Positions 3,848 through 8,258 of a stretch of 8,258 bases of DNA are shown here, in pieces; within the stretch, counting starts at the first letter, position 1, and every line of letters begins with the position of its first letter. A program made the position numbers and the translations under genes. The notes below the pieces were generated by a model. The model was not told the DNA's origin and ran no database searches. It worked only from the letters and a program-made list of their open reading frames with translations. The stretch lies in assembly GCA_002686955.1 (NCBI GenBank), contig NYZA01000268.1, forward strand, positions 1-8,258, given 5' to 3'. Source of the stretch: Gemmatimonadota bacterium (GTDB taxonomy: Bacteria; GCA-2686955).

Positions 3848-3936
3848 GAGGGCCTGTCGACTACGATCTCGCCCTGGTCCAAGTCGAGCTCATCTCCGAG
3901 CGTATTGTTGGGGCAGATCTGAAGGTATCCGCTCAC
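3848..3936 (-). repeat. Degenerate second copy of the large gene's C-terminal tail (direct repeat copy 1)
   Basis: This 89-base segment matches 6016-6104 in the same orientation with 12 mismatches by eye, including a 25-base identical block (3907-3931 against 6075-6099). On the minus strand it encodes SGYLQICPNNTLGDELDLD and so on, against NGYLQICPNDSPGEELDLD in the intact gene: 21 of 29 residues identical. It has no gene body of its own. It follows the propeller gene's stop after two codons, in the same frame. Ten of the 12 base changes alter the amino acid, which suggests decay. Probably the relic of a lost paralogue of the large gene. Confidence 0.8.
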
Positions 3937-3942
3937 AATTCC

Positions 3943-5967
3943 TCAGCGCGGACCAAAAGGGGGTGGATCGGTGGAGATCGCGGCCGGATCGGTCATGAGC
4001 CGCGGCTCCTCGCGCGGATCGAGATCCTCGTAGATCGCGCCTCCTCCCTCAGCCATCGCCGAAGCGACGAGAGCTGTTCCCGGGATGAGAACGATCTCGT
4101 GAATGTTGCCGGCCGACTCCGCGCCCGCGCCGCGGGTCAGGCCCCCTACTTCGTCGACGAGCACGATATGCAGGCTGTCGGATGTTTCCGTGTAGATCCG
4201 CTCGCCGGTGAATGCAATATTGTCGCCGATCAGCGAGAGCTCGCGCCAACCTAGCGACTGGACCGCGTGGGTCTTGGGATCGTAGTCGATGATTTCGATC
4301 GCACCGCTGCACGCCACGGCGATGCGCTTCGCCACTCGCTCCACCGCGTCGGCGCAGCGCATCGTAATCGGAGTCGATGAGATCGAGTGCACATAGCTGT
4401 CGCCACGTGTGTCCCAGCCGGCCGAGACGATGTGGAGAAGATCTTCACCGTTGATCGCCGCGATCGTGGAGTCGCCCGATGCCCACGCGTGCTGGCCGCG
4501 GGATCCGCTCGTGCGGAATTCGCCGATCTCCAGCGGGTGCGTCGGATCGACGGTGTCGATGAAGGTCACGAACACTCCCACGCGCCTTGCGACGAGCATG
4601 CGGCCGCCCCAGCTCAGGTCGTCATAGGCATGCCCGTACCCGCTATCGAACACCCCCAGAGGAGACAGGGTTCCGTCCCCTTCCTCGCGAAAGAAGTGGA
4701 TCTGCTCGTCCCCGCTCGCCGCCACCAGGGGCCGATCCGGCGAGACCGCTACGCTCCACCAGTTATTCTCGTCGATATGGTTGAAGATTTGCCGGTAGCG
4801 CCCCTCGGCATTGCGCTGAAGCACGCGCAGGCCGCCATCGTGGTCGGCCACATAGAGCCGATCGCCCTTGGCGGCGATGTCCTTCGCCGAGCCGGGGACG
4901 TTGAAGCGACGTTCCAAGACCGGATTCGAGGGATCGCTGAGGTCGTAGAATTCGAAGCCCTCGTCTGCCGCGGCGGCGATCAGGTGGTGGCCGAGGAAAT
5001 CGGCGCTTGGTGTGTAGGAAGCGCGCGGCTTCTCGATTGTCGCGACGTGCTCCCAGCCCACCGGGCCGCGGCGCTCGAAGAGCTCGATATTCGAGGCGAG
5101 ATCGCCCCTGATCGCGATGGCCAGGAGCGAATCGTGTATCGCCATCGAGCTGATCGTTCCCGCGACCTCGCGTTGGAACACCAAAGGCGGATCGAGAGGG
5201 TCGTGGCTGAGGTCGTGCAGCGTGAACCAGATCTGGTCTGGGTTGGATTTCGACCAAGCGGTGGCCAAGTGCTCGCCGCCGATCGTCAGGTCATAGGCAT
5301 GGCGCCGGCCGCTTCGCAACTCGCCCAAGATCTGGGGATTGCCGGGTTCGGCCAAGTCCACGATCGAAACGCCGTTGTTCTTTGAACTGGTGGCAACATA
5401 CGCAAGTCGTTCATGGAACTCCGCATCCGCACAGCTCAGCTGCAGTGTCGAGAGCCAGCGCGGGGAGTCGGTCCTTGCCACCGAGTAAATGTCGGTCTTC
5501 CCTATCCCGCCCAACACAGCAACTGTGTCTAGGTTCGCGATGGTGCAAAACTCCCCCGAAACCCCGCCACGGTAGTGAAGTGCATGGTCGCCGATCTCGT
5601 AGATCCGGAACTCATCGGGGTATTGCCAGTCGGGCTGGTGGAGAACGTAGACGTGCTTTTCGCTGACCGAGACCTGATGGTCCAGGATACTCCCGCCCAA
5701 GAGCGCTCCACCAACAGCACGAAGCGGAATCCCGGCCAGCAGACCAACGCCCCTGGACGTACCCAAGGCGACGTTCGTCGCGGCGGCACACACGACCGTT
5801 GCATACGTATTCGGCAACCACTGCCGAACCCGAATGCTCGGCATCGGCTCGACGTCGCCAGTCAAAGGCAACACCGGCATTTCGCCCGCGGCCGCGGCCC
5901 CGAGACCGATCGCAAGAGCGATCGATGCCGAGCCGCGGCTCCAGGCAATGAGGGCGCCCGACCGCAT
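3943..5967 (-). CDS. Secreted LVIVD-repeat beta-propeller protein
   Basis: A 674-residue exported protein. Residues 1-28 form a signal peptide: Arg2 and Arg11, hydrophobic core IALAIGLGAAAA, probable cleavage near AAAAG-E. There is no lipobox Cys. The rest is a run of beta-propeller blades of the LVIVD type, shown by repeated 'h-x-h-h-D-L-x-x-P-x-x-P-x-h-h-G' units: VSIVDLAEPGNPQILGEL (about 200-217), FEFYDLSDPSNPVLERRF (about 338-355) followed by GDRLYVADHDGGLRVL, and VTFIDTVDPTHPLEIGEF (about 467-484). Family knowledge: LVIVD proteins are surface or periplasmic and mostly uncharacterised; no enzyme motif is visible. The start is fixed by the TAATG overlap with the upstream gene's stop, with a weak AAGAG ribosome site, implying translational coupling. 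The C-terminus ends STDPPPFGPR. Two codons past its TGA, the same frame enters a copy of the neighbour's tail, so the present end may be a deletion scar. Confidence 0.85.
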   Translation of the reverse strand: MRSGALIAWSRGSASIALAIGLGAAAAGEMPVLPLTGDVEPMPSIRVRQWLPNTYATVVCAAATNVALGTSRGVGLLAGIPLRAVGGALLGGSILDHQVSVSEKHVYVLHQPDWQYPDEFRIYEIGDHALHYRGGVSGEFCTIANLDTVAVLGGIGKTDIYSVARTDSPRWLSTLQLSCADAEFHERLAYVATSSKNNGVSIVDLAEPGNPQILGELRSGRRHAYDLTIGGEHLATAWSKSNPDQIWFTLHDLSHDPLDPPLVFQREVAGTISSMAIHDSLLAIAIRGDLASNIELFERRGPVGWEHVATIEKPRASYTPSADFLGHHLIAAAADEGFEFYDLSDPSNPVLERRFNVPGSAKDIAAKGDRLYVADHDGGLRVLQRNAEGRYRQIFNHIDENNWWSVAVSPDRPLVAASGDEQIHFFREEGDGTLSPLGVFDSGYGHAYDDLSWGGRMLVARRVGVFVTFIDTVDPTHPLEIGEFRTSGSRGQHAWASGDSTIAAINGEDLLHIVSAGWDTRGDSYVHSISSTPITMRCADAVERVAKRIAVACSGAIEIIDYDPKTHAVQSLGWRELSLIGDNIAFTGERIYTETSDSLHIVLVDEVGGLTRGAGAESAGNIHEIVLIPGTALVASAMAEGGGAIYEDLDPREEPRLMTDPAAISTDPPPFGPR

Positions 5968-5969
5968 TA
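5965..5969 (-). promoter_or_regulatory. TAATG stop-start overlap coupling the two minus-strand genes
   Basis: On the minus strand the stop TAA of the large gene and the ATG of the propeller gene share one base (TAATG). This arrangement normally means co-transcription and re-initiation by the same ribosome. Confidence 0.8.
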
Positions 5970-8258
5970 CGGTCTCTTGAAGCGGACCAAGACCGCGTCG
6001 TTGGTCCCGATGACTGAGGGACTATCGATTACGATTTCGCCCCAGTCCAAGTCGAGCTCCTCTCCGGGCGAATCGTTGGGGCAGATCTGAAGGTATCCGT
6101 TCGCCTGCCGCTCGGGCGCCTGCCTCACGGCGGGCGCCGGGAGAGTGGCGCGAAGTGTACCGTCGAGCTCCAGGATCTCGATGTCGGCATACCCATCGAT
6201 GCGATTGGTGTAGAGACGGATCTGAGAACAGGCATTGCTGTCGCCCGTCACGAGCAACACCACCGCGTAGCCCTGAGCATCTCGACCGGTCACCAGATCG
6301 ATCGTCACCAACTGATCGTTCGACTCCTCTACGACGGTGATCGGATCGGAGTGCGGCTTGCCCGATTCGACGTAAGCGATCAGATTGGGCACGGTCGCGA
6401 GAGTGAAGCCACGGCCAATGCAGCGTGAGTTCGGACCGATGCAGTCGGAGTCGTAGAGGGCGAGAGCGATCGGATCGCCGACGAAAGTCTCTCCGTTTTG
6501 GGGATCGATGCGCCGGTAGCCGGTCAGGTAGAGACCGTGATTCCCGCTTGGATCGGCGAGCCACTGGTCGACGATGCCGGTCACGTCGATCCGCAGGAGC
6601 TGGGTATTCATGTCCATGAATGAGCCGCTGCCAGAAGTCCGGAGGACTTCATGGGCGGCGATGGCGTCGCGGAGGAACGTGTAGCTTTCGGGCATGTACC
6701 GTTCGAAGTACTTATCGTCCTCTCCGTCGTATGCGGCTTCGAGACCAGCCTTCACAGATCCCCACTCAATCCCCTCAGTCCACGGAACACCCACGCCCCC
6801 AACCTCATCCGGCACGGGCGACACGATCAGCCGCATCGGCGCGAAGTCCGTGCGATCCGGGTCCTCGTCGTCAGCAGAGACTACGACAACGCCATAGTCG
6901 GGATCGGTAAGGCGCCTCCACGCGGTCTGGCCGACGAGCGTGAGCTGCAGATCGACACGGTGGTACCCGATCCCTTCCAGATCGGAGAGGTCGTCGAAGC
7001 GCAGCAACGTTCTGGTGACCACGGGGCCGTCCGGCCAGGGCATCTCGTAGTTGTTGCCGATACTGAGAAGGGTCTCGTTGTTCGGGAATCCATCCTCGTT
7101 CGACTCGATGAACGTGTCGACCACGTCGTGCTCATCCACCTCGGTCTTGTTGTCGATCACCACCTCCCACACGGCGTCGGGCCCAGGGTGCATCGTCGCA
7201 TAGCCTTTGATGACGAAGTCCCAGCCTTGATTCAGCTCATTGAGCCCGTCGTAGAACTCCTGCGCGCTACGCCTACCCAGGCAGCCACCGTCTGAGTTGT
7301 CGAGCCAGCAGCGCGCGGTTTCGCTCAGCAGATTCCAGATCGGGCAGAAGGTGGTCAGGCCAAGTGGTAGCTCGATCGGTCCCTGTGGGCAGAGAGGTGG
7401 AGGTGTCTGGGGGCAGTCCAGACGGACGGTGTCGTAGTCGTCTTCGTTCGGCAACTCACCGTAAGATCCGGTCGATCGGTAGAGAACCACACCGGTGGCT
7501 CCGGCGGCGATCGACGATGCCACCATCGAATTGACCTGCCCGGGACTCGGTGGAGAGGTATTCACCTTGTTGGGATAGATCTGCACCGCGGGCCACACCG
7601 CGGTCGGCTGCCAGCAGTACTCCGTGCCATTCCAGTCACAACCGTTGACCGGGTGAGGAGCAACGGTGAAGCCGCCGCAGCCACCACCATGGCAGATGTT
7701 GGGATCGAGATCGCAGGCTCGGATCGCGTCGATCGCGATGCGGGTCAGTGTGTTTACGTGCTCCTCGGCGTTAGATCCGCAGTTCTGCAAAGGGAAGTGA
7801 TTCGGCACGATGACGTCGACCGCTCGGGCGATCTTCTTGAAGCGCTCATGAGGCCCGCACTCGTCGTCGGCGATATCGCACTCGATGGTTTCTTCGGTGC
7901 TGCGATCGTCCCACCCCGCCGGCATGCCCGGGCCCGGATCGCCGCTCGTGAAGGCCAGCAGGGGCCGAAATGGCGCGGGCGGGTTGAAGGTCTGTTCCTC
8001 CGCGCGGATCCAGTGTCGAATCTTGTGAAGCTCCATCCAGCCCTGGTCCTCCTCTTCGATGCCACCGAAAACGGTGCAGGTCATCTCGTCGCCCGCGATC
8101 CAGCCGTCGTCGAGGTACGAGAATAGTAGGTCCAGGCTGCCCGGGCCGTCGGCGGCGGCTGCGGCGAGCTCCGGGAGGATCTCGTTCAGCGCGAGGGAGA
8201 AGGCGAGCGGGGCGACGGGATCGCCCTGCTGGCCGCCCGCCTCCGACGAGAGCACCTC
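5967..8258 (-). CDS. Large multidomain protein, 5' end outside window: RT-palm motifs, glycosidase-like barrel, DNRLRE module, duplicated tail
   Basis: The frame is open at the right edge; residue numbers below count from position 8255, a GTG that need not be the start. Residues 1-57 carry reverse-transcriptase motifs (GGQQGDPVAPLAFSLAL, then SYLDDG). Residues about 51-370 resemble the second half of a TIM-barrel glycoside-hydrolase-like protein: GWIAGDE (like the GWYxxDEP strand with an acidic pair), RPLLAFTSG, a strand VDVIVPNHFPL, and WPAVQIYP...SMVASSIAAGATGVVLYRSTG, a strand-helix-strand pattern typical of such barrels. Residues about 373-580 match a DNRLRE module: DTFIESN...NNETLLSIGNNY, TRTLLRFD-DLSDL, VPWTEGIEW, LLRIDVTGIVDQWL...HGLYLTG. 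The last ~180 residues have no family I recognise. There are many Cys in 120-330, consistent with an exported, disulfide-bonded protein, but the signal peptide, if any, lies outside. First gene of a coupled pair with the propeller. The barrel assignment is fold-level only; substrate unknown. Confidence 0.75.
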   Translation of the reverse strand, partial: EVLSSEAGGQQGDPVAPLAFSLALNEILPELAAAAADGPGSLDLLFSYLDDGWIAGDEMTCTVFGGIEEEDQGWMELHKIRHWIRAEEQTFNPPAPFRPLLAFTSGDPGPGMPAGWDDRSTEETIECDIADDECGPHERFKKIARAVDVIVPNHFPLQNCGSNAEEHVNTLTRIAIDAIRACDLDPNICHGGGCGGFTVAPHPVNGCDWNGTEYCWQPTAVWPAVQIYPNKVNTSPPSPGQVNSMVASSIAAGATGVVLYRSTGSYGELPNEDDYDTVRLDCPQTPPPLCPQGPIELPLGLTTFCPIWNLLSETARCWLDNSDGGCLGRRSAQEFYDGLNELNQGWDFVIKGYATMHPGPDAVWEVVIDNKTEVDEHDVVDTFIESNEDGFPNNETLLSIGNNYEMPWPDGPVVTRTLLRFDDLSDLEGIGYHRVDLQLTLVGQTAWRRLTDPDYGVVVVSADDEDPDRTDFAPMRLIVSPVPDEVGGVGVPWTEGIEWGSVKAGLEAAYDGEDDKYFERYMPESYTFLRDAIAAHEVLRTSGSGSFMDMNTQLLRIDVTGIVDQWLADPSGNHGLYLTGYRRIDPQNGETFVGDPIALALYDSDCIGPNSRCIGRGFTLATVPNLIAYVESGKPHSDPITVVEESNDQLVTIDLVTGRDAQGYAVVLLVTGDSNACSQIRLYTNRIDGYADIEILELDGTLRATLPAPAVRQAPERQANGYLQICPNDSPGEELDLDWGEIVIDSPSVIGTNDAVLVRFKRP
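6009..6104 (-). repeat. C-terminal tail segment of the large protein (direct repeat copy 2)
   Basis: Encodes residues ~718-749 of the large protein, from NGYLQICPNDSPGEELDLD to the region of IVIDSPSVIG, followed by the true end TNDAVLVRFKRP. Positions 6016-6104 align with 3848-3936. With that copy it brackets the propeller gene in direct orientation, about 2.17 kb apart. This copy is in frame in an intact gene and so is the functional version. Confidence 0.8.
6516..7139 (-). other. DNRLRE domain within the large minus-strand protein
   Basis: Residues about 373-580. The order of landmarks is that of DNRLRE (CBM96-like) beta-sandwich modules: a 'DTFI' opening with a 'LSIGNNY' strand, 'RTLLRFDDL' with the conserved Arg and Asp, a 'WTEGIEW' turn, and 'IDVTGIVDQWL' near the end. 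Family knowledge: these modules occur in secreted surface proteins and some bind polysaccharide. An insert of about 30 residues (455-485) lengthens the middle. Confidence 0.7.
8085..8258 (-). other. Reverse-transcriptase palm fragment (motif B/domain 4 and YxDD/domain 5) at the right edge
   Basis: The sequence GGQQGDPVAPLAFSLAL (residues 7-23) fits the RT consensus GVxQGDPLxPLLFxLAL at nearly every fixed position. A catalytic-type YLDD (residues 47-50, DNA 8106-8117) follows after 33 residues, a normal spacing for RT palms. What follows lacks the later RT landmarks (GLxLNxxKCE, FLG) and instead looks like the glycosidase-like barrel, so only the middle of the palm can be present in the window. 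The QQGDPL...YLDDG flavour is, as far as I know, that of non-LTR-type elements rather than bacterial group II introns or retrons (QGxxxSP...YADD). Confidence 0.65.

Follow-up and report, generated by a model that had tools for sequence, protein, structure and literature searches.

The last open reading frame of this contig raises the question of whether a bacterium carries a reverse transcriptase (RT) fused to a surface protein, or whether two unrelated pieces of DNA have come to lie in one frame. The window is the entire contig C268 (8258 bp), whose sequence stops at position 8258, and the host assembly is a draft of 270 contigs (4.28 Mb) with a completeness estimated at 84.5%. On the minus strand a frame of 763 codons runs from 8258 to a stop at 5967; its 5' end is missing, it has no start of its own and no stop codon interrupts it before the contig end. 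The RT palm motifs QQGDPVAPLAFSLAL and YLDDG described by the first-pass annotation are present in this frame at the spacing given there, with no stop between them and the GWIAGDE stretch, and the RT palm piece makes up the final ~155 bases of the contig. Among the four explanations that the annotation offered, an assembly chimera at the contig end is the best supported. We consider it highly probable (about 85%) that retrotransposon DNA from another organism was joined there to a truncated bacterial gene; the apparent RT-protein fusion is probably not real.

The neighbouring genes on the contig are bacterial in type and code for an LVIVD beta-propeller protein and a PAS-histidine kinase-receiver protein. 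The contig also contains an 87-base direct repeat (87% identical, at 3848-3934 and 6016-6102), in which the 3' terminus of the 763-codon frame reappears just downstream of the stop of the beta-propeller gene, giving GYLQICPN..GDELDLDQGEIVVD. Some 800 bases (205-1015) hold no recognisable gene; the open frames tested there had no Pfam match and no RNA family was found in Rfam at E up to 1. An inverted-repeat pair (4008-4041 and 8163-8196, 79%) and a 37-base match at contig C19 were both taken as chance.

The frame opens with about 52-56 residues of an RT palm (QQGDPVAPLAF...YLDDG), in which QGDP and YxDD stand at the spacing of an RT; the fragment itself comprises residues 1-52 (8103..8258, minus strand) and is cut by the contig end. 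The RVT_1 profile matched the 65-aa tip with 18.6 bits (E=0.0017, profile positions 116-162), below the curated cut-off of 29.6, a shortfall that is expected because the tip is a quarter-length fragment. Against the PDB the best matches of the tip were R2 retrotransposon proteins, over GxxQGDPxxPLxFxLA, although these were not significant. Among the fetched loci, the tip was 43% identical over 58 residues (tblastn E=8e-6) to a 1109-codon ORF (L116) whose RVT_1 domain is complete (E=3e-16) and which in its own PDB search matched R2 (E=1e-4) and LINE-1 ORF2 (E=0.003). L116 came from contigs of bacterial genomes that were scanned for a pattern and was thus chosen via the motif; two further ORFs of the same bin (L143 and L144) were found via L116 without use of the motif and provide a fairer test. 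The alignment scores of the tip against L116, L143 and L144 were 85, 78 and 74, while the maxima reached by 1000 shuffles per ORF were 61, 55 and 65, so that every shuffle was beaten for all three.

The host has its own RTs of the group II intron RT/maturase kind (on contigs C71, C265 and C181), which belong to the same RT superfamily as the tip but read QGAPLSPLLAN and ADD, unlike the QGDP and YLDD found here. Against the copies on C71 and C265 the tip scored only 42 and 30, values equalled by 18/1000 and 53/1000 shuffles, and its match to the group II profile TIGR04416 was weak (E=0.16). In the shuffle test, group II RTs were no nearer to the tip than RTs of other kinds. The earlier claim that the RT subtype is unusual for bacteria is therefore upheld, since the best matches are R2-like, LINE-type ORFs and not the group II RTs of the host. 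Judged from the sequence, the RT origin of the tip is real and its subtype is closest to the R2-like LINE type rather than to that of the host introns. R2-like LINE-type elements are, as far as is known, eukaryotic.

Partial convergence, by which the tip would be an RT-resembling N-terminal part of the same protein and not an RT at all, could draw on the RVT_1 score under the curated cut-off and on a strand ahead of GWIAGDE that could fit a barrel. We regard it as very unlikely: the match spans SSE.G.QQGDP..P..FSLA plus YLDDG at RT spacing, as in the restriction-like-endonuclease (R2-like) LINE, or non-LTR, RTs, and two of the ORFs for which all the shuffles were beaten (L143 and L144) were not selected by motif.

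The RT similarity ends at YLDDGWIAG, just past YxDD, where the RVT_1 match stops at profile position 162 of 205, and the RT alignment finds no continuation in the sequence beyond. In R2-type ORFs the RT is followed by a CCHC motif and a PD-(D/E)xK endonuclease (PMC6895275), and the ends of L116, L143 and L144, judged by eye, look like this arrangement. In the frame studied here, by comparison, the remaining palm, thumb, CCHC motif and PD-(D/E)xK endonuclease of a complete R2-like LINE RT are absent downstream in the same ORF, unrelated sequence stands in their place and the 5' part lies beyond the contig end. Base composition changes near the same point, the GC content per 60 bases being 0.72-0.78 up to about 8109 along the frame and 0.55-0.63 after it; as a whole the tip has a GC of 0.73 and a GC3 of 0.92, where the remainder of the frame has 0.62 and 0.77. 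No 52-codon window in the three main ORFs of the contig reaches the GC level of the tip, but the shift is modest and we use it only as supportive evidence, because about 2% of equal-sized windows in a sample of another host contig are as GC-rich. The end of the RT alignment together with the GC drop suggests that the RT fragment gives way to the unrelated protein in the GWIAGDE stretch, with the probable join somewhere within 8082..8108 (minus strand).

When the RT domain of L116 was used as a query, the only match in the host genome was this tip (E=0.002), nothing was found in the single family relative, and no match at E 0.001 came from the 386 genomes sampled; as a control, the same query recovered matches in L116's own bin. 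The tip had no relatives in viral contigs, phages or plasmids, and no published work with similar motif strings was found. Single-query scans reach close relatives only, and such negatives are weak evidence. The host phylum has a single other searchable genome in the collection, its lineage being very sparsely sampled. These searches bear on a second alternative, a genuine truncated retroelement copy (R2-like or of another unusual RT) left as an insertion remnant in a bacterial gene. The genuine RT fragment and the bacterial neighbours on the contig would both fit such a remnant. However, there is no second copy in the genome and none of the same type in the 386 sampled genomes, and the fragment breaks off inside the palm with no element 3' end ahead of the host sequence, which makes an insertion as improbable as convergence.

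The remaining frame (704 codons plus stop, 5967..8081, minus strand) is probably a truncated bacterial protein. In the first-pass annotation the RT motifs continued, in one frame, into a surface protein resembling a glycosidase, with a barrel and a DNRLRE domain; the RT and the open frame stand, but the barrel found no confirmation. Residues 60-763 matched no Pfam family above its cut-off and no glycoside hydrolase barrel was among the matches, the whole frame matched no solved structure in the PDB, and a single-sequence fold model of residues 1-419, made without homologues, had an unusably low pLDDT of 33.9. A DNRLRE match (NF033679) does exist toward the C-terminal part, at residues 551-580, but with 19 bits against a curated cut-off of 34 it is a weak likeness of 30 residues to DNRLRE domain-containing proteins, and nothing else in the remainder has a match. 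No relatives of the remainder were found in genome_contigs, plasmids, viral contigs, the same phylum or the 98 and 386 sampled genomes; only short stretches of it recur, within the host genome itself.

A true RT-enzyme fusion, with an RT palm ahead of a secreted-type domain, has as its sole support a single frame that stays open over 763 codons up to the contig end. It is the least probable reading of all, since an RT that lacks all the parts past YxDD could not function as a polymerase. No further copy of the fusion turned up elsewhere in the host genome or in its family relative, and neither another example nor a homologue among the 98 and 386 genomes sampled or in scans of the collection.

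The assembly chimera is the simplest reading because the RT palm is cut both by the contig end and just past the catalytic strand, is not of the host's type and is followed by an unrelated partner. It is further supported because a search with a positive control found this RT type nowhere else in the host and not at all in its only family relative. According to this reading, the assembler would have attached to a bacterial gene without its own N-terminus, at about 8082-8108, some 150-175 bases of a LINE of the R2-like (restriction-like-endonuclease) type, whose most likely donor is a eukaryote present in the same sample. The open frame over the join would be a coincidence, as coding pieces on the same strand should stay in frame about one time in three, and the fused protein would not exist in any cell. 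That the source is a eukaryote and that the assembler made the join are inferences; what we observe is the RT fragment with its affinity, its place at the contig end, a truncation at each of its edges and the lack of further copies in the searches. Misassembly leading to chimeric contigs is a recognised error of metagenome-assembled genomes, but it has been termed relatively rare (PMC8201837), which counts against a chimera, as does the frame being open across the join.

R2-like LINE-type ORFs were also found elsewhere in the collection. The three used above (L116, L143 and L144, on contigs C57, C41 and C54 of genome G386) have 1109 to 1761 codons and come from a bin named 'uncultured Clostridia' (Lapin-021 bin91). 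Their contigs are short (3.5-5.5 kb) and richer in GC (0.61-0.66) than the other sampled contigs of the bin (0.42-0.59), which suggests that they are foreign DNA there. In the host genome, the end of another contig (G000:C181:15863-16501; L010, L012) carries part of a group II intron RT, which leads into a stretch with a GC of 0.41 and further pieces. Short parts of this end recur in at least eight other host contigs, so that it looks like a mosaic of repeats, and the idea of a second foreign chimera was dropped.

That an R2-like LINE-type RT fragment truly resides in the bacterial genome, inserted in or fused with a protein gene, is highly unlikely. If this were true, it would point to a bacterium having acquired a retrotransposon of eukaryotic type by transfer, and a real join would count among the rare instances of a bacterial genome that carries a eukaryotic-type LINE RT. 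As things stand, the biological weight of the finding is small. Its value lies in caution: R2-like retrotransposon ORFs do turn up in bins filed as bacteria, and in draft metagenome bins a frame that stays open up to the edge of its contig can mimic a convincing fusion.
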